A DNA stretch of 41,564 nt from Levilinea saccharolytica. GTDB taxonomy: Bacteria; Chloroflexota; Anaerolineae; Anaerolineales; Anaerolineaceae. The stretch spans positions 1 through 41,564 of the forward strand of contig NZ_LGCM01000020.1 of NCBI RefSeq assembly GCF_001306035.1. Reading direction: 5' to 3'. Every line of letters starts with the position of its first letter. Within the stretch, counting starts at the first letter, position 1. A program made the translations under genes and the position numbers. The notes beneath the pieces are model-generated. The model did no database searches and had not been told where the DNA came from. It worked only from the letters and a program-made list of their open reading frames with translations. This document shows, one piece after another, positions 1,677-22,797 of this stretch.

Positions 1677-3482
1677 TTAGACCAAAACGTCTAACACCAG
1701 CGCCACAAAAATAAACATGAGATACATGCTGGAATAACGGTACATCTTCCAGGCCACCTTATTGCCGCCCACGCGCAGCACCCGCCAGGCCGCGCCAATC
1801 AGCCACAACCCCAGCACCGCCGCGGAGATCAGGAACACCGACCCCGTCAAATTGAGCAGCGGCATCAGCAGCGTCACCGCCACCAGTTCCAGAGTGTAGA
1901 TAAAAATTTGGATACGCGTGCTTTTTTCGCCGCGGATCACCGGCATCATCGGCACGCCCGCTCGCGCATAGTCGTTGCGCCGCACCAGCGCCAGCGCCCA
2001 GAAATGCGGCGGGGTCCATAGGAAGATAATGGCAAACAGGAACAGCGCCGGAAAGGTCAGCGAACCCGTCACGGCCGCCCAGCCCACCAGCGGAGGGATG
2101 GCCCCGGCCCCGCCGCCGATGACGATATTCTGCACCGTCAGGCGCTTCAGCCACAGCGAATAAATCAGCACGTAATACACCATGCCTGCCAGCGAAAGCA
2201 GAGCCGCCGTCAGGTTCACGAAACCCGCCAGCAGGAAGAACGAGATCAGGTTGGCCGCCACACCGTAGGCCAGCCCCTCACCCGGGGTCAGCCGCTGCGC
2301 GGGCAAAGGCCGCTTGGCCGTGCGCTGCATGCTGCCGTCAATATCCCGGTCAATGTACTGGTTGATGGCGCTGGAACCAGCCGCTGCTAAAGCCCCGCCC
2401 AGCAAGGTCCACAAGGTCACTTCCCAGCCCGGGATAGCCCGCGCCCCCATGACCATGCCCGCGTAGGTGGTCACCAGCAGCAGCGCCACGATCAGGGGCT
2501 TGCTGAGGGTGAAGAAGTCGCGCAGCCGCGCGCGGAACTGCAGCGGTTCGCTGGCCTCGCTGCGCTCGTCCTCGCTGCGGCGGCCGGCCAAACCTGCCGC
2601 GGCCGCGGTCAACGCCAGGGCCGCCCACACCCCCGCCGCCGAAGCTGCATGCAGCCCCACCAGATCTGGCGAAAAGCCGCGGCTCACCTTCACCGCCCCA
2701 ATCAGCACCTGCCCGGCAAAGAGGGTAAAAGCCGCCGTCGCCGCGGTCAGGGTCACCTGCTGGCTGCGCTGCCCGCGCCAGGCGCGCACCACCAGCGCCG
2801 ACACGCCCACCCCACTCACCAGGGTCAGCGCGCGGTGCGCCAACGCCAGCCATCCTAACCCGTTCGTAGGCAGCCCGCCGGCGCACAGCGGCCAGCCTGT
2901 GCAGGAAGCGCCCGCGTCCAGGCTCACCACCCAGGCCCCGCTGACCATCAAAACCCCCACCAGCGCCAGAACCGCCAGCGTCAGCCGCGCAAACGGGGAG
3001 GCAAAGCGCAGGCCGTCGGCCTGCTGCGGGTCGTGATGAAAGCGGTACGCCGCCAGCGCCGCCGCGCTCAAAGCGCCCAACGCCGTCAGAGCCAGCCCCA
3101 GATGCACCCCGGCCAGAAACTCAGTTTCCGGGCGCAGGGCCACCCACGCGCCCCAGCCCGCCTGCACCAGCATCACCCCCGCGCCTGCCGCCGCCAACCC
3201 GCGCACCACGCGTGCCGCCCCGCGCCGCACGGCCAACACCGCCGCCGCCAGGGCCAGCAGCGCCCCCGCGCCGCTCACCAGGCGGTGTACCATGTGCAGC
3301 TGCGCCGCCGTATCCTGCGGCCAGGCGGCCTGCCCATAGCAAGTCGGCCAATCGGCACACACCGCCCCGCTGGCGCTCACCCGCACCACGTTGCCCATCA
3401 CCACCGCGAAAAAGGTCACCAGGGCTGCCGCCAAAAGCCACCCGCGCAGACTGCCCGCTGCCGTTCGTTCATTTGCCATCAT
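1677..3482 (-). CDS. ctaA-ctaB: Heme A synthase (CtaA/COX15) fused to protoheme IX farnesyltransferase (CtaB)
   Basis: A 601-residue membrane protein joining the two enzymes that turn heme B into heme O and then heme A for the oxidase encoded upstream. Residues 1 to about 300 are CtaA-like: paired cysteine motifs CADWPTC (42-48) and CTGWPLC (194-200), and histidines at 63/66, 127, 216 and 278 as in the heme-binding helices. Residues about 318-601 are a UbiA-fold CtaB with N374-D378-D382 (NxxxDxxxD) and the MQRTAKRPLP signature. The halves are joined by a short charged linker near 300-320. Start chosen at ATG 3482, after GGGGAGGA; it overlaps the SURF1 stop as ATGA. The frame extends 46 codons further upstream, but those lie inside SURF1. 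Last gene of the oxidase operon. Confidence 0.93.
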   Translation of the reverse strand: MMANERTAAGSLRGWLLAAALVTFFAVVMGNVVRVSASGAVCADWPTCYGQAAWPQDTAAQLHMVHRLVSGAGALLALAAAVLAVRRGAARVVRGLAAAGAGVMLVQAGWGAWVALRPETEFLAGVHLGLALTALGALSAAALAAYRFHHDPQQADGLRFASPFARLTLAVLALVGVLMVSGAWVVSLDAGASCTGWPLCAGGLPTNGLGWLALAHRALTLVSGVGVSALVVRAWRGQRSQQVTLTAATAAFTLFAGQVLIGAVKVSRGFSPDLVGLHAASAAGVWAALALTAAAAGLAGRRSEDERSEASEPLQFRARLRDFFTLSKPLIVALLLVTTYAGMVMGARAIPGWEVTLWTLLGGALAAAGSSAINQYIDRDIDGSMQRTAKRPLPAQRLTPGEGLAYGVAANLISFFLLAGFVNLTAALLSLAGMVYYVLIYSLWLKRLTVQNIVIGGGAGAIPPLVGWAAVTGSLTFPALFLFAIIFLWTPPHFWALALVRRNDYARAGVPMMPVIRGEKSTRIQIFIYTLELVAVTLLMPLLNLTGSVFLISAAVLGLWLIGAAWRVLRVGGNKVAWKMYRYSSMYLMFIFVALVLDVLV

Positions 3483-4297
3483 CCTATCCTCCCCGGTTCT
3501 TCCAACCATCTTTGCTCTACATCCGCTTGCACATCCGCGCCGCGATCTGGCTTCTGGCGCAGCTGCTGGCGCACAAAAAATGGATACCCCGCCAAGAGCA
3601 GCCCCGCAAAAGCAAACCACTGCATGGCATAGCTCTGATGCGACCCCTCGGTCAGCTCCACCTCGGCCAGCCCTCGGTAGGGCAAAGCTGTCCAGCCGGG
3701 GTCGGGAGCCTGCTGAATGTACACCGGCAGCAGTTCATACGGCACTTGCTGCTGAATACGCTCCAAATTGATAATATTCCAGGCCGCCAATCGCGTCTCC
3801 CCCGGCGCCAGGGTGGGGTCGGGCACACCCCCAAAATCGGGCCGGGTCTGCGGCCGCCGGATCTGCCCGCGCACCGTCACCACCCCCGGCTCATCGTACA
3901 CGCTCAAATCCTGCGCCTCTTCCAAAGGGATCCAGCCGCGGTCCACCAGCACCGCCGCCTCACCGCCCGCCGTCCGCAGCGGGGTCAGCAAACGGTAGCC
4001 GCTGCGCTCCTCCCAGGCCTGATTGCGCAGCAGCACCTGCTGGGAAAAGTCATATTCTCCCTGCACTGTCACCGCGCGGTATTCCATATCGAATAAATCG
4101 TCTGCCTTCCAGCGGTGCTGGTTCAAATCCAGCTCCGGCGCGTTGATCTGCGCGCTCACCCTTGCGTTAAAGGCCCGCCGCCATTCCAGCCGGTCCAACT
4201 GCCAGATGCCCAGGCGGGCCATCACCCCGGCCGCCGCCAGCACCAGCAGGCTGGTCAGCAGCCAGCGCAAGCTAAGCAAGCGGCGCAGCGTACTCAT
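3479..4297 (-). CDS. SURF1 family cytochrome oxidase assembly protein
   Basis: Inner-membrane assembly factor of 272 residues; family members help deliver heme A to oxidase subunit I. An N-terminal membrane segment is followed by the family signature LGIWQLDRLEWRR. A C-terminal signature (HQSYAMQWFAFA) leads into the second membrane segment, with an external domain between. The ATG at 4297 follows a strong AGGAGGAGCAAG ribosome site. The gene starts 26 bp inside the upstream cupredoxin-like gene and its stop overlaps the CtaA-CtaB start as ATGA, so translational coupling is likely. Confidence 0.92.
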   Translation of the reverse strand: MSTLRRLLSLRWLLTSLLVLAAAGVMARLGIWQLDRLEWRRAFNARVSAQINAPELDLNQHRWKADDLFDMEYRAVTVQGEYDFSQQVLLRNQAWEERSGYRLLTPLRTAGGEAAVLVDRGWIPLEEAQDLSVYDEPGVVTVRGQIRRPQTRPDFGGVPDPTLAPGETRLAAWNIINLERIQQQVPYELLPVYIQQAPDPGWTALPYRGLAEVELTEGSHQSYAMQWFAFAGLLLAGYPFFVRQQLRQKPDRGADVQADVEQRWLEEPGRIG

Positions 4298-4793
4298 CTT
4301 GCTCCTCCTCTTTGCGCGGCCCCACCGGCCGGATCACCAGGCTGTACAGCCAGAACAGCACCCCGCTGGGCAGTCCCACCGAGATAACCCCCTGCACGCG
4401 GATCCAGCTCGTCAGCCGCGGCTGCACATCCACCCCCAGCGTCTCCTGCGGCTGAAAACTGCAATCGTAACTGTAGGAGTTCGGCTCGCCCATCGTCAGG
4501 CTGCCGCTGCCCCCCGCTGGAACCCACACCGGCCCCAATTGGTGGCTGACATCATCCTGATTGACCACCACCAGCACATCTCCCTGAATGAAGGTCATGC
4601 TCTCCGGCAGGCGCGGGTCGCCTTCACCCTGCGCCACTCGCTGCGCCGTGCCCGCCGGGATGACCAGTTCCAGCCGCTGCGGGGTGTTGCGCACGTTGCG
4701 GTTCACCAGGCGAAAAGACACCTCGCTCACCAGCCACCCAAACAGCATGCTGGCCGCCATGACCCACAAGAAGCGTTTCAGGTGCGCATTCAT
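4272..4793 (-). CDS. Membrane-anchored cupredoxin-like protein of the oxidase operon
   Basis: A 173-residue protein with an N-terminal membrane segment (about 8-24), an external beta-rich domain and a second membrane helix (about 135-155). The middle resembles a cupredoxin fold: VVVNQDDVSHQLGP (His84), a PAGGS turn, and YSYDCSFQP (Cys111). The second histidine expected after the cysteine is Gln114 and no clear axial Met is seen, so a normal type 1 copper site looks incomplete. Between SCO1 and SURF1 it may help metallate the CuA or CuB site (inference). ATG 4793 overlaps the SCO1 stop as ATGA. Function is not established. Confidence 0.75.
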   Translation of the reverse strand: MNAHLKRFLWVMAASMLFGWLVSEVSFRLVNRNVRNTPQRLELVIPAGTAQRVAQGEGDPRLPESMTFIQGDVLVVVNQDDVSHQLGPVWVPAGGSGSLTMGEPNSYSYDCSFQPQETLGVDVQPRLTSWIRVQGVISVGLPSGVLFWLYSLVIRPVGPRKEEEQDEYAAPLA

Positions 4794-5398
4794 GAGCTTT
4801 TCTCTTTCAGCAGATAGCGCACATCTTCCACGATGTCGTCCACCGCCGTGCCAAAGGGGTAGGTCAGGCGCAGCTTGCCCGCTCGATCCACCACATACAC
4901 GCGCGAGCTGTGCGTCACCAAATACCCCGCGGCGGTCGTCTCGGTCTGAAACTCCACCGTGACCCCATAAGCGCGGTAGACCGCCTCCAGCGCTTCCGGC
5001 GAACCCGTCAGACCCAGAATGGCCGGGTCAAACAGGCTCACATACATGCCCATGCGTTCCAGGCTGTCCCGCGCCGGGTCCACGGTGATAAAGAGCATGT
5101 CCACGTCCGCCGCGCGCTCGCCCAGGGCCTTGCGCACCTCACGCATCTCGCTCAGCGTGGCCGGGCACACATCCGGGCAGCTGGTGTAGCCAAAGAAGAT
5201 CAGCGCCACCCGCCCCTGTCGTTCGTGCAGGGAATAGGTGGAGCCGTCCGTGGCCGCAAGGACGATTTCTGGCGCCGGCGCGCTCGAATCGATCACCGAG
5301 CCGCGCAGTTGGTAGGGGCGCAGGCTGGCCAGGCCCATCATCACCACCCAGCCCAAAAGCGCGCCCACCGCCAGCCAGAAACCGTATTTGCGCACCAT
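4790..5398 (-). CDS. sco1: SCO1/SenC family copper chaperone
   Basis: A 202-residue thioredoxin-fold protein tethered by an N-terminal membrane helix (about 5-25). It carries the copper-binding CPDVC motif (Cys74, Cys78) and the distal His163 in VTHSSRVYVVD, so all three SCO copper ligands are present. SCO proteins deliver copper to, or reduce the cysteines of, the CuA site of subunit II, which fits its place six bases after the subunit III gene and upstream of the cupredoxin-like and SURF1 genes. ATG at 5398. Confidence 0.95.
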   Translation of the reverse strand: MVRKYGFWLAVGALLGWVVMMGLASLRPYQLRGSVIDSSAPAPEIVLAATDGSTYSLHERQGRVALIFFGYTSCPDVCPATLSEMREVRKALGERAADVDMLFITVDPARDSLERMGMYVSLFDPAILGLTGSPEALEAVYRAYGVTVEFQTETTAAGYLVTHSSRVYVVDRAGKLRLTYPFGTAVDDIVEDVRYLLKEKSS

Positions 5399-5404
5399 CT
5401 GTCC

Positions 5405-5986
5405 TTACCCTCCCACCGTGCCAATCAAATACAGCGCCGGGTAGAAGAAGATCCACACCAGATCCACAAAGTGCCAATAGTTGGCCGCCGCTTCCACCGC
5501 CCAATGGTTCTCCGCCGAGTAATGCCCGCGCATTCCGTTGCGCAGGATGAACCCCAGGAAGATCACCCCCGTCAGCACATGGAAAGCGTGCATGCCGGTC
5601 ATCATGTAGAACACCGCGCCTTCCGTGCCGTCCGCCGGGCCAAAGGGGGCCAACTGCCATTCAAAGCCCACCACGCCCACCAGGAAGACGATCCCCAGCA
5701 GCATGGTGATGACCGTGTTGCGCACAAAGCTCTTGCGGTCGTTGTGGGCGATGCTGACCTCGGCACGGTTCATGAAGAAACTACTCACCAGCAGCACTGC
5801 CGTCACAATCAGCCCCAAAAACTGCTCCAGATGCGGGCGCGCCTGCCCCAGCAGGTAAAAGCGCGTCACCAGCAGCCCGCCAAACACAAACCCATCCGAG
5901 AGGAAGAACAGCCACAGCCCCAAACGGCGGGTGGTCATTTTCCGCGCCGCCTCTTTGGCCGTCAATACCGCGGTATGCGTGCTCAT
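5405..5986 (-). CDS. ctaE: Cytochrome c oxidase subunit III
   Basis: A 193-residue polytopic protein with about five membrane helices, the shorter bacterial form lacking the first two helices. GLWLFFLSDGFVFGG, FYMMTGMHAFHVLTGVIFL and the C-terminal NYWHFVDLVWIFFYPALYL are family hallmarks. The start is ATG 5986, after GGAGG and overlapping the subunit IV stop as ATGA. The reading frame is open for 36 more codons upstream, but those lie inside the subunit IV gene. Confidence 0.95.
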   Translation of the reverse strand: MSTHTAVLTAKEAARKMTTRRLGLWLFFLSDGFVFGGLLVTRFYLLGQARPHLEQFLGLIVTAVLLVSSFFMNRAEVSIAHNDRKSFVRNTVITMLLGIVFLVGVVGFEWQLAPFGPADGTEGAVFYMMTGMHAFHVLTGVIFLGFILRNGMRGHYSAENHWAVEAAANYWHFVDLVWIFFYPALYLIGTVGG

Positions 5987-6201
5987 GCGTGTCCTCCTTC
6001 TTCCGGGTTGGTCAGGCGGCGGATGTGCATGAAGAACCACACCACCAGGGCCGCCTTCAAAATCGCGATCGCCCACAGCGTGAACGCCGGCCATTCACTC
6101 ACCCCGGCCCAATATTCCAAACCCGTCAGCGCCGCCAGCCCCAAAAATACCTGCACACCGGTGCGCCACTCTTTCTTTTTTGAAGTTTCCATCGCATCCA
6201 T
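5983..6201 (-). CDS. ctaF: Cytochrome c oxidase subunit IV (small, prokaryotic type)
   Basis: A 72-residue protein with two predicted membrane helices ending in AALVVWFFMHIRRL, typical of the bacterial subunit IV/COX4_pro family, accessory to the catalytic core. Two close starts exist, ATG 6201 and ATG 6192. I prefer 6201, which has an AAAGAGG ribosome site at good spacing. The gene begins 16 bases after the subunit I stop and overlaps the subunit III start. Confidence 0.85.
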   Translation of the reverse strand: MDAMETSKKKEWRTGVQVFLGLAALTGLEYWAGVSEWPAFTLWAIAILKAALVVWFFMHIRRLTNPEEGGHA

Positions 6202-6217
6202 TCTCGGCCTCTTTCCG

Positions 6218-8062
6218 TCAGTCGCCCGCGGGTTGGCGCACCGTTTCCACGTAGCGTGAATTCGGCAGGCCATAATCGTAGGGTTCGCCCACCACCCGGA
6301 TTGGCTCCGCAAAGTTGTGCAGCGGCGCCGGCGAAGGGATCTGCCATTCCGGCGAGCGCGATTCCCACAAATTGCCTTCCACCACCTCACCCTTGCGCGC
6401 GCTGATCCACAAATTGATGAAGAAGATCAGCACAGAGAAGGCCACCAAAAAACCGGCGATGGTGATCAGTTGGTTGGAGAAGGTGAAGCCCATCTCCGGG
6501 TCGTAATCGGCGATGCGGCGGCGCATGCCCAGCAAGCCGATGCGCATTTGCCCAAAGGTTTGCAGCAGGAAAGCCGGCAGCAGCAGCCAGAAGTGCGCCT
6601 TGCCCAGTTTTTCGCTCATGCGCCGCCCCGTGATCTTGGGGAACCAGTAATAGATGGCGGCGAACAGCGGGAAGATATATCCGCCAAACATGGTGTTGTG
6701 AAAGTGCCCCACGATGTAATAGGTATCGTGCAGGTGCAGGTCGGTCGAAACCGTGCCGCTCGGCGGGCCGGTAAGACCCCCCATCAGGAATACAATCACG
6801 CCGCCCAGCACAAACAGCATCGGCGTCGGAAACCGCAGCCGCCCCTGCCACATGGTGGCCACCCAGCTGAAGAACTTGATCCCCGTGGGAACCGCCACCA
6901 GCAGGGTGCTGTACATGAAGGGAACCCGCAGGTATTCCTCCATGCCGGAGGTGAACATGTGGTGTCCCCACACCAAAAAGCCGGTCAACGCGATGCCCAT
7001 CGAAGACAGCGCCACCCAGCGGTAGCCAAACAGCGGCTTGCGTGCAAACACCGGCAGCAGCTCGCTGATCACCCCCAGGCCGGGCAGCACGAAGATGTAC
7101 ACCGCCGGATGGGAATAGAACCAGAACAGGTGCTGGAACAAAATCGGGTTGCCGCCCGAAGCCGGGTCAAAGAAACCCATCCCCAGCAGGCGCTCAAACA
7201 TCACCATCTGGAACGACAGACCGATCAGCTGTGTGGCCGTAGTGGAAATGATCGAGGTCGCCAGCATAGCCCAGGCGAAAATGGGCATACGGAAGAGGGT
7301 CATCCCAGGCGCGCGCATCATCAGGATGGTGGCGATCAGGTTCAGAGATCCCAGAATGGAAGACCAGCCCACGATGTACACACCCAGGAAGAACATCTGA
7401 ATGCCCATCGGACCGCGCACGCTCAGCGGCGGGTAAGCCGTCCAGCCCGTCTCAAACCCGCCTACGAACATAGCGCTCACCAGCAGCACCGTTCCCGGAA
7501 CCGCCATCCAGAACGAGAACGCGTTCAGGCGCGGAAAAGCCATGTCCTTGGCCCCGATCATCAGCGGGATGATGAAATTGGCCATCGCCGCGATGCCCAT
7601 CAAAATCGAGGCGATCAGCACCATGCCGTGCATCCCAATCAGGGTGTTAAATTGCAGATAATTGAGAAAATCCAGCCCCGCCTGAGCCAGCTCGGTGCGG
7701 AAGATCAGGGCAAAGGTGCCGCCCAAGGCCAGGGTGATCATGGAAAGGAAGCCGTACTGCACCCCAATCACCTTATGATCCAGGCTCACGCCAAAATAGC
7801 GCGCCCCTCCCGGGGTCTCGTGCACTTCCTCAGCCTCCGGCACCGGTTTGCCCAGCGCCATATGCCACCAATCGCGCATCGTGCCGATGCCCGCCAGGAA
7901 GGTGATGGCCCCCACCACCCCGCCAAAAACCATGGCCGGCTCCGTCTTCCAGGGCAGGCCCATCAGCGCGCGGATGGCCCCCAACAGGCCCATGCCCGCG
8001 GCTGTGCCGATCGCCTGCCAAATTAGCCCGCGTACCAACCCAAGTGAAAAGAATTTTTTCAT
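6218..8062 (-). CDS. ctaD: Cytochrome c oxidase subunit I, A2-type heme-copper oxidase
   Basis: Catalytic subunit, 614 residues. Heme and copper ligands are visible: His145 (heme a), His318, His367 and His368 (CuB), His453 (heme a3) and His455 (heme a). The cross-linked Tyr is Tyr322. Instead of the GHPEVY motif of A1 oxidases it has YSHPAVY (316-322), so the proton-channel glutamate is Ala and the Tyr-Ser pair of A2 oxidases is present. The K-channel lysine (Lys396 in VPTGIKFFSW) and the D-channel aspartate (Asp173 in GAKDMAFPRLN) are kept. An N-terminal extension of about 80 residues carries two extra membrane helices before the usual core. The start is ATG 8062, 16 bases after the CtaC stop. 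Confidence 0.97.
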   Translation of the reverse strand: MKKFFSLGLVRGLIWQAIGTAAGMGLLGAIRALMGLPWKTEPAMVFGGVVGAITFLAGIGTMRDWWHMALGKPVPEAEEVHETPGGARYFGVSLDHKVIGVQYGFLSMITLALGGTFALIFRTELAQAGLDFLNYLQFNTLIGMHGMVLIASILMGIAAMANFIIPLMIGAKDMAFPRLNAFSFWMAVPGTVLLVSAMFVGGFETGWTAYPPLSVRGPMGIQMFFLGVYIVGWSSILGSLNLIATILMMRAPGMTLFRMPIFAWAMLATSIISTTATQLIGLSFQMVMFERLLGMGFFDPASGGNPILFQHLFWFYSHPAVYIFVLPGLGVISELLPVFARKPLFGYRWVALSSMGIALTGFLVWGHHMFTSGMEEYLRVPFMYSTLLVAVPTGIKFFSWVATMWQGRLRFPTPMLFVLGGVIVFLMGGLTGPPSGTVSTDLHLHDTYYIVGHFHNTMFGGYIFPLFAAIYYWFPKITGRRMSEKLGKAHFWLLLPAFLLQTFGQMRIGLLGMRRRIADYDPEMGFTFSNQLITIAGFLVAFSVLIFFINLWISARKGEVVEGNLWESRSPEWQIPSPAPLHNFAEPIRVVGEPYDYGLPNSRYVETVRQPAGD

Positions 8063-8078: not shown

Positions 8079-9500
8079 TTACTTCAAAGATTGCATGTAA
8101 GCCACCAGATCGGCGATTTGCTGCTCGCTGAACTGGTCTGCATAGGTGGCCGGCATGACCCCCGGCGGAAAGCCTTTTACCACCGCCGCGTTGGGTTCCA
8201 GAATGGCCTGGATCAGGTAAGCCTCGTCCACCGTCACGCTGCTGCCGTCCGCCAGCTCATGTGTGCTGCCCGCCATACCTTTCCAGGTCGGCCCCACCAG
8301 CGGGCTGCCGTCCAGCGAGTGACACCCCAGGCAGCCGTTGTTTTTGGCCAGCCGTTCGCCGCGCGCCGCCGGGTCGCTGCTCACCGCCGCCATCTCGCCC
8401 GCTTCCCAGGCAGCAAAGTCGGCCTTATCCATCACGATCACCGGAGCGTTCATGTTGGCGTGCGCCCCGCCGCACAGCTCCGCGCACAGCACCTTGTATT
8501 CACCCGTCAGCGTGGGCGTAAAGCGCAGTTCCTTCACCAGGTTCTCTCCCGGCAAAATGTCCTGCTTCACGCGAAATTCCGGCACCCAGAAGGAGTGGAT
8601 CACATCCGCCGAGGTCATCTTCAACAGCACCTGCTCGCCCACCGGCAAAACCAGGCTGCCTGAGGTGATGCCCGTCTCTGGGTACTCAAAGCGCCAGTAC
8701 CACTGCCCGGCGGTCACGTTCACCACCAGGGCCTGCGGTTCCACCCGCCGGATGTCGGCCAGGGAGAGCGACCCCAGGTAAGAGAAGTACAGCACCGTCC
8801 CCAGGGGGATAATCGTCCAGAAGATTTCCAGCTTGGTCGAGCCTTTAAAGAATTTGCCCTGCTGGGTATCGTTCTCCCCTCGCCGCCGGAAAACGACGAT
8901 GCTGTACACCATGAACACCCCGATCAGGGAGAACAGGAAGGAGATCACCCAGTAATGCGCGTTAAACAATTGGTCAATGAGGGTCGCCTGCGCGCTGGCC
9001 TGCACAGGCAGCAATCCGGCGCTCTGCAAACCGAAATTGGTCAATACGGTAAAAATGACCACCAAGACACCGACAATCACAAAATGTTTCATACCATCCT
9101 GCCTCCTGGGTTGTTCTTGCGAAGGGGGTTGCGTGGGCCAGGGCTGCTCCAGCCAATCCCCTGCCCGTTCACCGCGAAAAGTTTGCCGGTCGTACACCAC
9201 CACCTCACCGCTGTCGCGCAAAGAAACCATCACTACCTGTAAGGCGCGGCCGCCGCCCTGAATCAAATGATCCAGAAAACGCGCGCGTTCAATGGTTTCG
9301 TCGTCATAGTCCACCAGCACCAAATCCGGCTGCCATTGGTCCAGCGCATTTAAGGCCGCGTGCATCTCCCCCGCCAGCCGCACCTGCTCCGGCGCAATCT
9401 TCCAGCGCTGGCGCAGCAGTTTCTCCAAACCCTTGCCGAACAATGGGTTTGCGGAAGCAATCAACACTCTTTGTGGGGCCTGCTCTGCATGTCCTGCCAT
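8079..9500 (-). CDS. ctaC: Cytochrome c oxidase subunit II with C-terminal cytochrome c (caa3), preceded in frame by a degenerate receiver-like domain
   Basis: The open frame from ATG 9500 gives 473 residues. Residues 1-120 resemble a two-component receiver fold (RVLIASANPLF, then DLVLVDYDD with Asp64, then VVMVSL), but the acidic pair after strand 1 and the usual conserved Lys are missing. Residue 137 is a Met that starts a normal subunit II (337 residues if used): a signal-like first helix, two membrane helices, CuA ligands His166, Cys203, Cys207, His211 and Met214 (numbered from that Met), and a fused heme c domain with CLGCH and a GVMP axial-Met region. An AGGAGG lies 9 bases before the internal ATG at 9092, so subunit II may be made separately. 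First gene of the oxidase operon. Confidence 0.9.
   Translation of the reverse strand: MAGHAEQAPQRVLIASANPLFGKGLEKLLRQRWKIAPEQVRLAGEMHAALNALDQWQPDLVLVDYDDETIERARFLDHLIQGGGRALQVVMVSLRDSGEVVVYDRQTFRGERAGDWLEQPWPTQPPSQEQPRRQDGMKHFVIVGVLVVIFTVLTNFGLQSAGLLPVQASAQATLIDQLFNAHYWVISFLFSLIGVFMVYSIVVFRRRGENDTQQGKFFKGSTKLEIFWTIIPLGTVLYFSYLGSLSLADIRRVEPQALVVNVTAGQWYWRFEYPETGITSGSLVLPVGEQVLLKMTSADVIHSFWVPEFRVKQDILPGENLVKELRFTPTLTGEYKVLCAELCGGAHANMNAPVIVMDKADFAAWEAGEMAAVSSDPAARGERLAKNNGCLGCHSLDGSPLVGPTWKGMAGSTHELADGSSVTVDEAYLIQAILEPNAAVVKGFPPGVMPATYADQFSEQQIADLVAYMQSLK
9090..9107 (-). promoter_or_regulatory. Internal ribosome-binding site and start for subunit II
   Basis: Within the long ctaC frame, an AGGAGG sits 9 bases upstream of ATG 9092, which begins MKHFVIVGVL, the natural N-terminus of a subunit II. 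The same bases read in another frame give GTA TGA overlapping this ATG as ATGA, the junction type used elsewhere in the operon. A one-base shift upstream would therefore make the receiver-like part a separate coupled gene. Confidence 0.6.
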
Positions 9501-9736: not shown

Positions 9737-9763
9737 CAAAAAACGCGCCTGCGCGCGCTTTTT
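9737..9763 (-). terminator. Terminator after the two-component system
   Basis: On the minus strand, AAAAAGCGCG and CGCGTTTTTT can pair (one G-U pair) around a 6-base loop, ending in a run of six T. It lies 24 bases after the response-regulator stop and separates that pair from the oxidase operon. Confidence 0.75.
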
Positions 9764-9786: not shown

Positions 9787-10437
9787 TCAGCGTTTCTGGC
9801 GCAATATCCCCAACTGCATGGCCTTGCTCACTGCCTCGGTGCGGTTGGCAGCCCCCAGTTTTTCCAAAATATGCCGCACGTGGGTCTTAATCGTGTTCTC
9901 CGATAAAAACAATCCGCTCGCGATCTGCTGCGTGGTTTGCCCCAGCGCCAGCAAATCCAAAATCTCCATCTCCCGCTCGCTCAGCATCGACTGCGGGGCT
10001 TCATTCCCGCTCTGTATCAGCGCCCGCAGCACCGGCGCGGTCACCTCCGGCGAAAGCACGCTTTGCCCTTGCGCCACGCGCAGCAGCGCCCGCCGCAAAT
10101 CCTCTGGCTCGGTATTTTTCAGCAAATACCCGTCTGCCCCCGCGCGGATGGCCGCCAGCAGATCGGCGTCATTCTGCGAAATGGTCAGCATCAAAATACG
10201 CGGCTTGTCCCCTGCCCGCCGCACCGCCTCCACCACGCCCAGGCCGTCCATCACCGGCATGTTCAGGTCCAGCAAAATGATGTCTGCCTGCACCTGTGCC
10301 AAAACCGCCAGGGCCTGTTCGCCGTTGCTGGCCTCGGCCGCCACCTCAAATTCCGGCATATCCCGCAGCAGACCCACCAGCCCGCGCCGGAACAAAGCAT
10401 GATCATCCACCACCACCAGCCGCACCCGTTCGCTCAT
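9787..10437 (-). CDS. NarL/FixJ-family response regulator
   Basis: A 216-residue regulator. The receiver domain (1-120) has the acidic pair Asp11-Asp12, phospho-acceptor Asp57 in DIILLDLNMP, and Lys in YLLKN. The LuxR-type helix-turn-helix occupies about 150-212 (LSEREMEILDLLALGQTTQQIA, then NTIKTHVRHILEKLG). The ATG at 10437 overlaps the histidine kinase stop as ATGA, so the pair is co-translated. Its gene precedes the oxidase operon on the same strand, making that operon, the neighbouring cytochrome c gene or both plausible targets (inference). The frame extends 74 codons upstream, but those lie inside the kinase gene. Confidence 0.95.
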   Translation of the reverse strand: MSERVRLVVVDDHALFRRGLVGLLRDMPEFEVAAEASNGEQALAVLAQVQADIILLDLNMPVMDGLGVVEAVRRAGDKPRILMLTISQNDADLLAAIRAGADGYLLKNTEPEDLRRALLRVAQGQSVLSPEVTAPVLRALIQSGNEAPQSMLSEREMEILDLLALGQTTQQIASGLFLSENTIKTHVRHILEKLGAANRTEAVSKAMQLGILRQKR

Positions 10438-12224
10438 CCGTTGTGCTCCAATTGTGTGCGCGGCAGCCGCAGGCGCACCCGCGTGCCCTGACCCATCTGA
10501 CTGGTGATTTGGAAATCTGCGCCAATCACCTCCGCCCGTTCGCGCATCCCGCGCAGCCCAAAACGCATCACCTCCGGCACGTCCTCCGGAGCAAATCCGC
10601 GCCCGTCGTCGGCCACCTCCAGGATCAAGTCCCCTTCCCAGGCCCCCAGCCGCACCCAAACGCGCTGCGCCCCGGCGTGTTTGCGCACGTTGCTCAGCGC
10701 CTCCTGGTAAATGCGCACCAGCTGGGCGCGCACCTCCGGAAGCACTTCGGGAACCTGCGCATCCACCTGGGTTTCCACACGCAGCCCGCTGGCGCTTTCA
10801 AAGGCAGCCCCCGCCGTGTGCAGCCAATCACCCAGAGACATATCCGCGTCCAGGCGCAGGTTTTCAATCACCTGGCGCGTTTCCAGATAGGCGGCGTTCA
10901 GCGCGCCCAGATGATCCTGCACCACTTCGTTCAGGCGGCCCGTCTCGCCGCGCTCCAGCAGCTTCTGCATTTGCGAAGTCTGCATCTTTAAAAACGCCAG
11001 AGTCTGGGCCAGGCCGTCGTGAATCTCGCGCGCCAGACGCGAACGCTCCTGCATCACCGCCTGGTACTCCAGCTCGAAGAAATCACGTTGGGTTTCCACA
11101 AAATGGGCCGCCTGGGCTGCCAGAGTGTTCACCGTTTCCAACTGGCGTGCGTCAAACCCCGCCCCGTGCGCATCCACCCGGCCGATCAGCAGCCCGCCCA
11201 CGGCCTGCCCCCCGGCTGTGGTCACCGGCGCACCGGCCCACAGCCCGCCCCCCAGACGAAAGAGAGTGTCTCCCTCCCGCTGCGCATCCGCAAAGGCTGC
11301 CCGCGCCGTTTCTGCGTCCACCCCCGCCAGCCAACCCTGCTCCGCCTGCACCCCCACCAGGCGCTCGCCGTAAGGCTGAATCCACAGCAGGGCGTAATCG
11401 CCTTCCAGCGCCTTACGCGCGCCCATCACTAGCCGGTCGGCCATGGTTTGCAGGTCGCTGTGTCCGCCGTGGCTCTGTTGGATCTGCTGAATGGTGTTGA
11501 TTTCCTGGTTGCGCAAACGGATGGTTTGGATGGCGTAGGCAATTTCGTTCAGCAGCCCGTCCAAAAACACGCGCTCTTCCGCCCCCAGGCCGCGTCCCGC
11601 GGGCAGGTACAGGCTGAACAGGCCCAACATGCGTCCCTGCCGCCGCAGCGGCAGGCAGTACACCCCCAGCACTTGTGTAAAGGGCGGCTCCAGCAGCGGG
11701 CAGGGCGTGCCCGCCTCGGCCTGCAATTCCTGACAGACCGAACAGCGCTCCTGCACCGCGTGGGAGGCCAAGTGTTCGGCCCAACCCTTGATCAAACCTT
11801 CAGGGATGACGCCCTGGGTGTAAGCCGTCAACGGCTGACCCCATTCGTCCAGGGGCACAAACGTGCTGGCGCGCGCGTCGGTCAATTGGCGCAGGATCTC
11901 TAAAGCCTGCTGGATGAAACCGTGTTCATCCCCGGCGTTCACCAGGCTGTGGTTGAGGCGCAGCACGCTTTCCATGCGCGCCGTCAACTGCCGCTGCTGG
12001 GTCTGCATCTCGGCCAGCTTCCGCCGCTGCGCTGCCCCATACAGCCACCAGCCCACCGCCGCCGCCGCCATCCCCGCCGCGGCCAGCACCAGCAGTACAT
12101 ACCCGCCCAGGGGCAAAGCCGCCCCCAACCGCGGGCGCAGGGCCAGCCCGGCCGCCCCCACCGCAGCGGCAGCCAAAAGGCTCATCCCCATCCTCGTCGT
12201 CCAGTGCATCCAGCCGGGTCTCAT
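10434..12224 (-). CDS. NarX-like sensor histidine kinase with GAF-type sensing regions
   Basis: A 596-residue membrane kinase. Two membrane helices (about 14-30 and 41-63) with almost no external loop are followed by a coiled segment and two GAF-like regions (about 95-235 and 250-375). A HisKA_3 dimerisation helix carries the phospho-His402 in LAREIHDGLAQTL, and an HATPase domain has the N-box EALSNVRKHA and G-box VADDGRGF. The first GAF-like region has Cys161, Cys164, Cys175 and Cys190 (CSVC...PCPLL), which might bind a cluster or sense redox state. The lack of a periplasmic sensor suggests a cytoplasmic signal. Start chosen at ATG 12224 because a promoter ends just before it; the frame is open to 12272. 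Confidence 0.9.
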   Translation of the reverse strand: MRPGWMHWTTRMGMSLLAAAAVGAAGLALRPRLGAALPLGGYVLLVLAAAGMAAAAVGWWLYGAAQRRKLAEMQTQQRQLTARMESVLRLNHSLVNAGDEHGFIQQALEILRQLTDARASTFVPLDEWGQPLTAYTQGVIPEGLIKGWAEHLASHAVQERCSVCQELQAEAGTPCPLLEPPFTQVLGVYCLPLRRQGRMLGLFSLYLPAGRGLGAEERVFLDGLLNEIAYAIQTIRLRNQEINTIQQIQQSHGGHSDLQTMADRLVMGARKALEGDYALLWIQPYGERLVGVQAEQGWLAGVDAETARAAFADAQREGDTLFRLGGGLWAGAPVTTAGGQAVGGLLIGRVDAHGAGFDARQLETVNTLAAQAAHFVETQRDFFELEYQAVMQERSRLAREIHDGLAQTLAFLKMQTSQMQKLLERGETGRLNEVVQDHLGALNAAYLETRQVIENLRLDADMSLGDWLHTAGAAFESASGLRVETQVDAQVPEVLPEVRAQLVRIYQEALSNVRKHAGAQRVWVRLGAWEGDLILEVADDGRGFAPEDVPEVMRFGLRGMRERAEVIGADFQITSQMGQGTRVRLRLPRTQLEHNG

Positions 12225-12230
12225 GCTCAA

Positions 12231-12339: not shown

Positions 12340-12774
12340 TTACTTGAAGGTCTGAATGTGGGTGATGACCTGCCAGATTTCATCTTCCGACAGAATGTCT
12401 TTCCAAGCGGGCATCGAGGATTTGTACGGATCCATCATGCCGCCTTCGGCAATGCGGTAATAGATATAGGCTTCATCCGTCTCCGCGACGGCTTTGGCCA
12501 GATTGTACGGCTTGGGCGATAGGGAAGCGCCCGCCGGGCCGTCCCCCGCACCCTTCTCACCGTGGCAGGAGGCGCAGTTGACATCGTACAGGGCTTTGCC
12601 CGCCGCGGCAGCATCCGCCGAACCCGCTACCGGGTTTTTCTTCCCAGCATATTCAGCCGGGGTCGCCCCGCGCTCTTTGCCGCTGTCCGCAGCCGGGGCA
12701 CCGCCGCCGCAAGCTGAGAGCATCAACGCGCTCAAAACCAAAATCACTGCCACTAGATAAAATGACCGCTTCAT
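12340..12774 (-). CDS. Monoheme cytochrome c lipoprotein
   Basis: A 144-residue exported cytochrome. The signal peptide ends in a lipobox LSAC (Cys22), a Gly/Ala-rich linker follows, then one class I heme c domain with CASCH (67-71) and a likely axial Met121 in SSMPAW. A small lipid-anchored cytochrome beside a caa3 operon is a plausible electron carrier to the oxidase (inference). ATG 12774 follows AGGAGG at good spacing. It has its own terminator and promoter and is divergent from the Rrf2 regulator. Confidence 0.95.
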   Translation of the reverse strand: MKRSFYLVAVILVLSALMLSACGGGAPAADSGKERGATPAEYAGKKNPVAGSADAAAAGKALYDVNCASCHGEKGAGDGPAGASLSPKPYNLAKAVAETDEAYIYYRIAEGGMMDPYKSSMPAWKDILSEDEIWQVITHIQTFK

Positions 12775-19840: not shown

Positions 19841-21841
19841 TTATGCCCGTTCCGCCGGTTCAATGCTACCCAGGTGTATAACCCTGCCCATCACGCTGAC
19901 GTCGTACCCCGGCATGGCCGACACCTCACGGCGGAAGGCTGCATCCTGCATCAGGTCAAACACGGGTTTCAGCAGCTCGTTCTGGGCGTATTCTTCTGGG
20001 ATCACCAGATCATAGCGTTCGTGGAACAGGGGGATGAAATCCAGCTCCAGGGCCTGCGCCGCCGCCGTCACCCCCAGCCCGCAGTCCGCCCGGCCCGAAG
20101 CCACCGCCGCCGCCACCGCCAGATGGGTGTATTCTTCCTGCTCATACCCCTGAACCTGCTCCGCGCGGATGCCCAGGCGCTGCAAATGGTAATCCAGCAG
20201 CACGCGTGTGCCCGCCCCGCGCTGGCGGTTGATAAAGCGCATATCCTCGCGGGCCAGATCCGCCAACCCTTGCACGCCCTTGGGGTTGCCTTTGGGAACC
20301 AGCAGCCCCTGTTCGCGGTTGACCCACGCCACCAGGCGCACCTCCCGTCCCGCCAGGTACTGTCCCAAGTAGCGCAGGTTATATTCGCCGCTGTCGGGGT
20401 CGAGCAAATGCGACCCAGCCAGGTGCGCCTCACCCCGCCGCAGCGCCACCAGCCCGCCCTGACTGCCCACGTTGGCGCTCACCAGCCGCCGGCCGCGTTC
20501 CGCCAAATGCTGCGCCAGCAGATCCAACGTCAGATCATGCGAGCCAATCGCAAACACCGTGCGTTCCAGTTCTTCCGGCGCACGGTACAGCCGCACGCGG
20601 ACATTGGAGCCGGCCTCCAACCCCTGCACGCCGCGCGGCAGCACAGCGATGCCGTCTGCCCGCACCAGCGAGGTGATCACCCCCGCCCCACGCGACAGCG
20701 GCGCCGCCAGCAGCCGGGTTCCCACACGGCCCACCACCACGCGCATAAAGTCGTCATCCCCCGCCGGTGAGGTCACCTTGCGCGTCAGGGCCGCCTCCAC
20801 CTCAATCGGTTGAAAAGCCCCGCGCCCCAGCCAGCGGGAGAGCAGCGGCTCCACGAAAATTTCACCCGTCAGCGCCGCCGAAACCGGGTAGCCCGGCACA
20901 CCCACCACCGGCACGCGCCGTTCGGGCTGGGCCGCGCCCGCTGAGCGCCGCAGCATCCCCAAAATCACCGGGTGCCCGGGCCGCACGGCCACGCCGTGTA
21001 CCAAAAGCTCGCCCAGGCGTTCCACCACCCGCGCCGAAAAATCCTCCGACCCCGCCGAAGAACCCGCGTTCAGCAGCACCAGGTCGTTTTCATCCGCCGC
21101 CTGCTGCACGCGCGCGCACAGCAGTTCAAAATCGTCCGGGGTAATGGGGAAACGCACTGCCTCGCCGCCCCAGGTGTTCACCTGCCCAGCCAGCACGATG
21201 GAATTGAACTCGATGATGTCCCCCCGGCGCACGTCCTGACCCACCGGGATCAGCTCCGTGCCCGAAGGCAGCACCGCCGCGCGCGGCTTGCGCGCCGCCC
21301 ACAGGTGGGTGTGTCCGCTGGCCGCCGCCGCCCCCAAATCCACCGGCCGCACAGTGTGGCCCGCCGGAAGCACCAGCTGCGTGGCCACAATATCCTCGCC
21401 CATCGGGCGCACATGCGCCCAGGGCGGCAGGCCCGCCCGCAGCCGTATGGCCTGCGGTTTGCGCGGGTCCGCGGCGGGCTGATCGGCGCTGTCCAGCGCC
21501 TCCACCTGCTCAATCGGCACCACCGCGTCGGCCCAATCCGGCAGCGGGTCGCCCGTATCCACATACTGCGCCTGACTGCCTAAAAGCAGGCTCACCGGCG
21601 CGGTCGGCATGGCCTCGCGCGTGTCCGCGGAGCGCAGCGCAAAACCGTCCATGGCGGAGGCGTGGTAATGCGGCGAGGAAATCCGCGCCCAAACCGCCCG
21701 TGAAAGCACCCGCCCCACGGCGCGTTCATCCAGCGGGATATATTCTTCGGCCAGCACGCCCCCCAACCCGGCCTCTTCCAGGGCTTCCCGCAGCCGGGCT
21801 TGCGCCTGATCTAATGGGATATCATGCAGATATACAGCCAT
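19841..21841 (-). CDS. MoeA domain fused to a PBP-like domain (molybdopterin biosynthesis)
   Basis: A 666-residue protein. Residues 1 to about 440 are MoeA-like: ASAMDGFALRS, a VVPIEQVE region, VRPMGEDI, LPSGTELI, the nucleotide/pterin site NAGSSAGSEDF, GVAVRPGHPVILG and VPGYPVSA. Residues about 450-660 form a PBP-like domain with IGSHDLTLDLLAQHL, a QRGAGTRVLLDYHL motif and SGRADCGLGV, as in the substrate-binding domains often fused to MoeA or ModE-type proteins. No export signal is present, so the PBP-like part acts in the cytoplasm, possibly binding molybdate, tungstate or a cofactor intermediate. ATG 21841 is 17 bases after the pseudo-deacetylase gene. Confidence 0.9.
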   Translation of the reverse strand: MAVYLHDIPLDQAQARLREALEEAGLGGVLAEEYIPLDERAVGRVLSRAVWARISSPHYHASAMDGFALRSADTREAMPTAPVSLLLGSQAQYVDTGDPLPDWADAVVPIEQVEALDSADQPAADPRKPQAIRLRAGLPPWAHVRPMGEDIVATQLVLPAGHTVRPVDLGAAAASGHTHLWAARKPRAAVLPSGTELIPVGQDVRRGDIIEFNSIVLAGQVNTWGGEAVRFPITPDDFELLCARVQQAADENDLVLLNAGSSAGSEDFSARVVERLGELLVHGVAVRPGHPVILGMLRRSAGAAQPERRVPVVGVPGYPVSAALTGEIFVEPLLSRWLGRGAFQPIEVEAALTRKVTSPAGDDDFMRVVVGRVGTRLLAAPLSRGAGVITSLVRADGIAVLPRGVQGLEAGSNVRVRLYRAPEELERTVFAIGSHDLTLDLLAQHLAERGRRLVSANVGSQGGLVALRRGEAHLAGSHLLDPDSGEYNLRYLGQYLAGREVRLVAWVNREQGLLVPKGNPKGVQGLADLAREDMRFINRQRGAGTRVLLDYHLQRLGIRAEQVQGYEQEEYTHLAVAAAVASGRADCGLGVTAAAQALELDFIPLFHERYDLVIPEEYAQNELLKPVFDLMQDAAFRREVSAMPGYDVSVMGRVIHLGSIEPAERA

Positions 21842-21858
21842 ACCGCCGTCCTTGATCT

Positions 21859-22797
21859 TTAGGGGTTGGCCGGTTTCCACGGCAGCATCGCCAGGAAATT
21901 GGTCATATCTTGATTGTTGCGCACCGCAAAGCGGCCCAGATAAAACAGCGATCCGGCGTAGTGATCAAAGGTCGCCAGCAGGGTCGCCCCGGCATAATAG
22001 CCGTAGTTCGCCACCCGCGCCGCCACAAAATCGTTCACCGCCCCACCGGGGTAGGCAAATGACGTGATGGGGACGCCCAGCTTCTTTTGCAGCTCTTCCC
22101 GCGATCCGGCGATCTCCTGGCTGAGCAGTTCGGGCATACCGGTCAAATTGATGCGGCTCATGCCGCTGCTGCCGATCTCCCAGCCCGCCGCCGCCAGGTC
22201 TTTCAGCTGCTGCGTGGTCAGTTTGCCGTTGGTGTCAATTTCGTTCACCACCGTGAACACCGTGGCCACATAGCCGTACTTTTGCAGCCGCGGAAAGGCC
22301 TGGGTGTAAATGCCGGCCGAATTCTTATCAAAGGTGATCACCACCGGCCGCTGGGGCAGATTGGCGCCCTTATACACCGCCTCACTCAACTGTGCCAGGG
22401 TGATGGGGGTATAGCCCGCCTGCTGCAAGGTCAGCAAATGCTGGTCAAACACCTCCACCGGCGTGTCATCCTCCGCGCTGGAGCCTTCCCCCACTGTGCC
22501 GTACGCCAGAATGGGCGCAGTGGCCTTGCCCGCCGGATTCCAGATCCAGGTGGGGCTGGGGGTGGGCGAAGGCGCGGGGGTCTCCGTGGGCACCGGCGTC
22601 TCCGTCACCGTGGCGGTCGGCTCCGGGGTCAGCGAAGGCGTCACCGAAGGGGTCAGCGCAGAAACCGCCGTCAACTGCGCCACCACCGTGCCCGCCGCCT
22701 GGGTGTATACCAGGTTGGGGTCCTCGGCCGGGGTCTGCGGGCCGCAGGCCGCCAGCAAAAACATCAAAACCCATGCGAAAAGCAAAACTCTCTTCAT
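21859..22797 (-). CDS. NodB-like lipoprotein lacking metal ligands (predicted pseudo-deacetylase)
   Basis: A 312-residue exported protein with lipobox LLAAC (Cys18), a Thr/Pro-rich linker (about 48-83) and a polysaccharide-deacetylase fold. It is clearly a paralogue of the gene just upstream. The NodB motif TFDDG is here TFDKN (Asp157 kept, metal-binding Asp replaced by Lys158), and HSxSH is SSGMSR (both metal histidines replaced by Ser211 and Arg215). A conventional divalent-metal deacetylase site therefore cannot form. A glycan-binding or partner role is possible. ATG 22797 follows GGGAGG, 16 bases after the upstream stop. Confidence 0.88.
   Translation of the reverse strand: MKRVLLFAWVLMFLLAACGPQTPAEDPNLVYTQAAGTVVAQLTAVSALTPSVTPSLTPEPTATVTETPVPTETPAPSPTPSPTWIWNPAGKATAPILAYGTVGEGSSAEDDTPVEVFDQHLLTLQQAGYTPITLAQLSEAVYKGANLPQRPVVITFDKNSAGIYTQAFPRLQKYGYVATVFTVVNEIDTNGKLTTQQLKDLAAAGWEIGSSGMSRINLTGMPELLSQEIAGSREELQKKLGVPITSFAYPGGAVNDFVAARVANYGYYAGATLLATFDHYAGSLFYLGRFAVRNNQDMTNFLAMLPWKPANP

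Follow-up and report, generated by a model that had tools for sequence, protein, structure and literature searches.

A single gene in a group of Chloroflexota seems to code for two nested proteins, the cytochrome c oxidase subunit CoxB and a longer protein in which CoxB is preceded by a receiver-like domain. The gene was studied in a window of 41,564 nt, the whole stretch of a Levilinea saccharolytica contig (NZ_LGCM01000020.1) that was analysed, and in related genomes; all evidence is DNA, mostly from draft genomes. Our main explanation, to which as a whole we assign a probability of about 0.48, is that coxB, in what is a caa3 oxidase operon, carries two in-phase translation starts and that the receiver-like domain of the long version acts on a neighbouring kinase and regulator pair. 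The long version would thereby attach a redox-signalling part to the respiratory enzyme.

The long product (8079..9500, minus strand, 473 aa) is read in one open frame from an ATG at 9500 with no stop at the join, which confirms the stop-free run of a 136-residue receiver-like segment into subunit II described in the initial annotation. Residues 1-136 (9093..9500, minus strand) comprise a pseudo-receiver domain, with a folded core at about residues 10-118, and a linker (residues 119-136). CoxB (8079..9092, minus strand), a caa3-type subunit II with three N-terminal helices, a CuA domain and a cytochrome c, begins at an in-frame inner ATG (9092-9090). A Shine-Dalgarno AGGAGG (9102..9107, minus strand; codons AGG AGG, encoding two Arg residues) lies within the frame, 9 nt ahead of this ATG, and both signals are located as had been claimed. 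In residues 137-473 the COX2_TM, COX2 and Cytochrom_C domains all scored above the Pfam cut-offs, and with 159.8 bits (cut-off 147.7) this part belongs to the CoxB family TIGR02866 of NCBIfam. Its best sequence match among solved structures was 2yev_B (residues 46-337, E 1.6e-41), which we take to be subunit II of the Thermus caa3-type cytochrome c oxidase. The alignment covers the CuA and cytochrome c parts; since the 2yev_B chain is 337 aa long and is matched at 42-325, it has no room for a receiver, in which it differs from the window protein.

The single window protein scored below the cut-off of PF00072 (residues 1-136; 18.7 bits against 30.2), and the receiver call therefore rests on profile and fold. 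Ten of 16 relatives matched PF00072 at E 0.01 or better, and a 16-row profile searched against the PDB matched NarL-family receivers (best 3eul, E 5e-06; 1a04, E 1.1e-4), the two best matches being NarL proteins; NarL was also the best NCBIfam match. The AlphaFold2 model of the receiver part (pLDDT 78) has a receiver fold in which beta-4 leads directly to beta-5, without alpha-4, and the predicted order of elements (beta-alpha-beta-alpha-beta-alpha-beta-beta-alpha) is that of the alternating receiver fold. About 41 of the 50 Foldseek matches listed were receivers as judged by their titles (best E 1.7e-4; just two matches at E 0.001 or better), and VIA structural matches had Z 8.5-10.4 across the 50 rows listed. 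The structure prediction and homology check thus back the earlier receiver call, and profile and model together mark the domain as a NarL-like pseudo-receiver that has no alpha-4.

The acidic pair and the conserved Lys, noted before as lacking, are indeed lost in the window protein (S16 and A17; Gln at the Lys position), but it had been overlooked that the phosphorylation site still has its Asp (D64) and that the Thr position holds a Ser. In the 31 loci where pseudo-receiver and neighbouring regulator could both be aligned, the first acidic-pair position is always Ser and the second always A, S, N or G, and the phosphorylation-site Asp, the Ser at the Thr position and a Tyr at switch position K-3 are likewise found in 31 of 31; the Lys position holds Arg (24 loci), Gln (4) or Lys (3). 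The pseudo-receiver does not have the full set of residues of a phosphorylatable receiver (acidic pair, Asp, Thr/Ser and Lys). Pseudo-receivers (PsR, e.g. CmrT of CmrRST, and FrzS) are defined in the available text of Bourret et al. 2025 (PMC12632262) as having the receiver fold minus active-site residues, and by that definition the domain is a pseudo-receiver. Compared with the neighbouring regulator, identity is highest in alpha-1 and beta-3 (0.44 each) and only 0.06-0.10 in alpha-3, alpha-4 and alpha-5. Receivers usually contact their kinase through alpha-1 and pass on output through alpha-4/5. Helix alpha-1 was examined for co-evolution of the pseudo-receiver with the regulator of its own locus, and none was seen: identity within one locus (0.44) is hardly above that across loci (0.41), giving no sign of tuned pairing.

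The comparison of homologous loci for fused and separate genes covered 50 loci, i.e. 49 fetched behind the strong matches of our searches for relatives, and the window. CoxB lies directly downstream of the receiver frame on the same strand in 46 of them; the other four (L104, L114, L135 and L136, of which L114 is a weak member with 43 bits) have no CoxB on the piece and were excluded. The two genes are joined in frame without a stop in 30 of the 46, the window included (29 genomes, 19 genera, 3 families), and separate in 16 (10 genera). In the separate loci the receiver stop lies at most 108 nt ahead of the CoxB start, and at the other extreme the two genes overlap by 4 nt (ATGA), as in one relative (G052, locus L134); the overlapping separate gene envisaged in the initial annotation is thus a real form, though one not supported for this genome. 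Since 16 loci have separate genes, covalent linkage is not always needed, which suggests that the domain can work without it.

A profile search of 251 genomes of the order gave a match at E 1e-8 or better in 46 genomes, a few of which matched weakly only and resembled ordinary regulators, and a draw of 301 genomes from the phylum gave four strong matches, all in the same order as the window, the other 10 matches (E 2.3e-10 or worse) resembling ordinary regulators. From one relative search 16 of 32 matches were dropped (E 8.9e-6 or worse) and from the order-level search 10 of 53 (E 3.8e-11 to 7.7e-9); a scan of genome contigs found just one near relative. On the CoxB tree, which has weak support at depth, the fused or separate state requires at least five changes, and the fusion may have had two origins or several losses. 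In one separate locus (L143 of G240) the receiver frame stops at a TAG 29 nt ahead of CoxB, and the receiver profile match extends across this stop, possibly a recent loss of fusion. The genus-mate G001 carries the whole module twice, fused in either case, on contigs C72 (L123) and C56 (L122), with CoxBs 58% and 97% identical to that of the window, respectively.

The full-length model (pLDDT 73, with low confidence at residues 96-115 and in the linker at 119-134) has helices at 137-160, 170-205 and 222-250, followed by the CuA and cytochrome c parts, in agreement with the three-helix topology proposed before. Together with the usual membrane orientation of CoxB, these modelled helices would place the receiver in the cytoplasm. 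The stretch LLP..AS.QA...ID after helix 1 is conserved whether CoxB is fused, separate or without a receiver (53 rows, by eye), and A168, A172, I175 and D176 are invariant in the 29-row CoxB alignment, from which L141 was excluded (truncated by a contig end, 206 aa of CoxB). Signal-peptide cleavage follows a -3/-1 rule, and the first CoxB helix may end in a signal-peptide-like manner, in which case cleavage could separate the receiver from the mature enzyme. Because this presumptive cleavage region is equally conserved in unfused CoxBs, we give about even odds to the receiver staying on the mature enzyme.

It is accordingly conceivable, although we regard it as somewhat unlikely, that the join exists in the nascent chain only and that signal peptidase yields a membrane-anchored receiver and a normal mature CoxB, the receiver acting independently, like that of the 16 loci with separate genes. 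The shared LLPxxASxQA end of helix 1 and the separate genes in 16 of 46 loci agree with such processing, as does the poor sequence conservation of the linker (18 to 126 nt among fused loci). The cleavage motif was, however, judged by eye with the -3/-1 rule, and processing accounts for the fusion being tolerated but does not by itself explain an open frame across 19 genera, unless selection acts on the membrane anchoring of the receiver.

Fused loci were compared in ten pairs, which overlap in part; dN/dS was about 0.01-0.22 for the receiver and about 0.015-0.11 for CoxB (finite dS in 7 of 10 pairs for each), pointing to purifying selection on both. For the linker it was 0.10-1.8 (finite in 9 of 10): 0.73-1.8 in five pairs, 0.39-0.46 in three, undefined in one and 0.10 in the pair of the window itself (10 codons). 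Strictly inside the 30 linkers no stop occurs in frame 0 (0 of 558 codons), against 9 of 528 codons in frame 1 (7 of 30 linkers) and 45 of 528 in frame 2 (20 of 30 linkers), together 54 stops in 1,056 codons, with the reservation that the label fused was assigned by openness, which brings ascertainment into the linker statistics, and that loci and pairs are not independent. A mononucleotide-shuffled single linker stays stop-free with a mean chance of 0.57, and single linkers therefore prove little. At least 16 changes of linker length fall on the tree among fused loci; as fused loci are in phase by definition these changes are multiples of three, and they are best weighed against the small number of frame losses (16 length changes against 4 to 6 frame-losing changes; P 2.5e-5 to 1.8e-4 under a 1-in-3 model, a rough figure). 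A frame open by chance is disfavoured by the dN/dS values, the linker-length changes and the stop counts.

All 30 fused loci carry a conserved ribosome site and start codon within the one open frame, namely an in-frame ATG with a match of at least five bases to AAGGAGGTGAT, the Shine-Dalgarno consensus used to score starts, 4-12 nt upstream; the spacing is 7 in 25 of the 30. Other in-frame ATGs of the same genes have a site of at least five bases in 17 of 246 cases. In the eight codons before the inner ATG, AGG accounts for 32 of 52 Arg codons, compared with 49 of 738 elsewhere in the genes; the Fisher values calculated for the inner start presuppose independence. Separate loci have a site of at least five bases before CoxB in 14 of 16 cases. 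At the outer (receiver) start a match of at least five bases is seen in just 6 of the 46 loci, so that the long receiver-CoxB form is probably a minor product; in the window, too, the outer ATG (9500) has a weaker ribosome site than the inner one. A promoter scan upstream of the receiver gene found none. Since changes in the linker have not closed the frame and the start signals of CoxB are conserved too, the choice offered in the initial annotation between a true fusion and a hidden separate gene is probably a wrong one, and we consider it quite probable, as one joint claim on the architecture, that two in-phase starts are in use and that the receiver fold is real.

These observations also bear on two simpler accounts. 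Were the long protein alone made, with the AGGAGG and ATG as a relic of once-separate genes, the open frame and the purifying selection on the receiver would be expected; yet every one of the 30 fused loci retains the ribosome site and ATG, AGG codons are enriched there, and the Shine-Dalgarno site of L129 lies in a different codon phase than in most loci, so that bases rather than amino acids seem to be kept, and we think such a single product improbable. It is similarly improbable that the upstream frame merely sets CoxB translation by coupling, the receiver fold being inherited baggage. The inner sites are indeed stronger than the outer ones and coxB comes immediately after the receiver frame in 46 of 50 loci, but the low receiver dN/dS disfavours a pure leader frame, and D64, D66, D67, D104 and R105 (window numbering) are invariant in 16 sequences. 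Two separate genes hidden by a frameshift or a sequencing error in this assembly, the one-base difference suspected earlier, are rejected as highly improbable, for although the other frame gives an ATGA overlap of the kind that is real in G052, and ATGA occurs at the inner start in 29 of 30 fused loci (mostly because the second CoxB residue is Lys), the genus-mate G001 has the same frame without an indel (97% protein identity to the window) and 28 further loci are fused as well.

The genes around receiver-coxB are all on the minus strand. Upstream we found a terminator-like stem-loop (9743..9756; a consensus match only) between the regulator and receiver-coxB genes, a NarL-like response regulator (9787..10461; Response_reg and LuxR HTH, with acidic pair, Asp, Thr and Lys present), a NarX/NarQ-like histidine kinase (10434..12227; GAF domains with a conserved 4-Cys motif) and a small cytochrome c (12340..12774; lipoprotein-like N-terminus by eye). 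Downstream follow CoxA (subunit I, 6218..8062; TIGR02891 611.7 bits, slightly under the cut-off of 670.75), a COX4_pro-like subunit IV (5986..6390; a GTG ORF whose true start is probably further in), a CoxC-like subunit III (5405..6094; named from position and conservation in the locus), a product that we take from its CPDVCP motif to be an SCO-like copper chaperone (4790..5398; conserved in the locus), the assembly factor SURF1 (3479..4297) and a CtaA-CtaB-like fusion (1677..3620; COX15-CtaA and UbiA in one 647-aa frame). The last fusion, with UbiA as the CtaB-like part, also occurs in one frame in L104.

The gene order that recurs, whole or in part, is Rrf2 (reading the other way), cytochrome c, kinase, regulator, receiver, CoxB, CoxA, CoxC and SCO. 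Kinase and regulator lie upstream in 27 of the 46 loci (21 of 30 fused, 6 of 16 separate), and the regulator alone in 4 of the 16 separate loci, several others of which are cut short by contig ends. Among the other nine fused loci, L145 has a partial regulator only, L147 and L121 have just 154 and 2,334 nt upstream, respectively, and six have at least 3.8 kb upstream yet no pair (L115, L116, L118, L120, L127 and L137). Five of the six genomes concerned have a kinase of 337-400 bits elsewhere; a search for the kinase in G172 (82% complete) found none. Of seven tree genomes with CoxB but no strong receiver match, six have no kinase at 250 bits or more; the exception, G054, has a short receiver-like frame before a CoxA in a neighbouring stretch of the same contig. 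The receiver is present despite an absent or weak kinase in G261 and G172 (none), G008 and G269 (127-131 bits) and G052 (230 bits). In one genus (g8: L132 of G008, L144 of G269 and L107 of G261) the locus has no kinase and the receiver is separate from CoxB; the regulators of G008 and G269 have D-N as acidic pair, two of three genomes thus having lost an acidic residue, as if the signalling module were decaying there. In L104 (G067) and L136 (G023) the pseudo-receiver follows the kinase and regulator genes and is itself followed by CtaA-CtaB or SURF1, not by CoxB.

The best NCBIfam match of the kinase was NarQ (NarQ/NarX closest; 112 bits, cut-off 553) and that of the regulator NarL (188 bits, cut-off 250). 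Kinase Cys residues 182, 185, 196 and 211 (CxxC...C...C, in the GAF region) are kept in 28-29 of 30 orthologs. These four conserved Cys in a kinase closest to NarQ/NarX fit a redox or oxygen sensor, and the motif is a candidate metal or Fe-S redox sensor site upstream of the oxidase operon.

We propose that the inner ATG gives ordinary CoxB, and that the outer ATG would give, as a minor product of the same gene, a CoxB to whose N-terminus a pseudo-receiver is attached by a flexible linker, on the cytoplasmic side. This domain, which keeps the NarL features of alpha-1 and beta-3 and would have lost the normal metal site and alpha-4, might bind the neighbouring NarX-like kinase or NarL-like regulator while itself unphosphorylated. 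Displayed on some CoxB chains, it could tether the redox-sensing pair at the membrane, or dampen it there, to a degree that follows oxidase production, and docking would serve to report on oxidase synthesis or to restrain it. Cleavage by signal peptidase after helix 1 would free the receiver as a single-pass membrane protein and leave the feedback logic intact. That the receiver acts on the neighbouring pair is a tentative suggestion, rather less probable than its opposite. The complete scheme, in which a non-phosphorylatable receiver on a minority of subunit II engages the pair controlling the oxidase, at a dose set by the second in-phase start, as a post-translational feedback, is unlikely as a whole. 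Against the main explanation we count the receivers that precede CtaA-CtaB or SURF1 in G067 and G023 and those kept in kinase-poor genomes.

Pseudo-receivers, CoxB and internal starts are each known, but their combination did not turn up in searches of an open-access library: by title and abstract opening, neither a receiver-CoxB fusion nor this locus was found there. Like NarL/NarP and NarX/NarQ, the pseudo-receiver, regulator and kinase have their best NCBIfam matches in that system (NarL for the first two, NarQ for the kinase), but the pseudo-receiver differs by lacking the HTH, the acidic pair and alpha-4, and regulator and kinase both score under the curated cut-offs. CheA, with its long and short forms, is the textbook gene with an in-frame internal start and a shorter second product. 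What the present gene would share with CheA and with N-terminal proteoforms is a second ribosome site that lets one frame yield two proteins; unlike in CheA, the signalling domain is joined to a respiratory subunit and relatives keep the two as separate genes. Among pseudo-receivers, CmrT shares an operon with a kinase and a regulator, binding or heterodimer effects on the pair being proposed as possibilities and the switching of bacterial pseudo-receivers being called a mystery in the available text of PMC12632262. As described there for CmrT and FrzS, the window domain has a receiver fold lacking active-site residues, and like CmrT it is encoded beside a kinase and a regulator; it differs from them in having no alpha-4, in having lost both acidic-pair residues with the Asp kept, in scoring only 18.7 bits to PF00072 and in being joined to a respiratory subunit. 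The 4-Cys motif within the GAF region of the neighbouring kinase, a candidate cluster site, resembles AirS and NreB, redox/oxygen kinases with an Fe-S cluster according to the available text of PMC8774646, but this kinase scores best with NarQ/NarX.

The locus offers a conserved pseudo-receiver whose likely partners are often adjacent and whose gene is joined to that of an enzyme, and it occurs naturally in both a fused and an unfused state, which allows comparison. Should the long form be retained in the mature oxidase, a redox two-component system would be linked physically and directly to a respiratory enzyme, and if the dual start is true, annotation with one start per frame gets the gene half wrong. 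Elsewhere in the window (19841-21880, minus strand) a MoeA-type molybdopterin protein is fused to a PBP-like domain.
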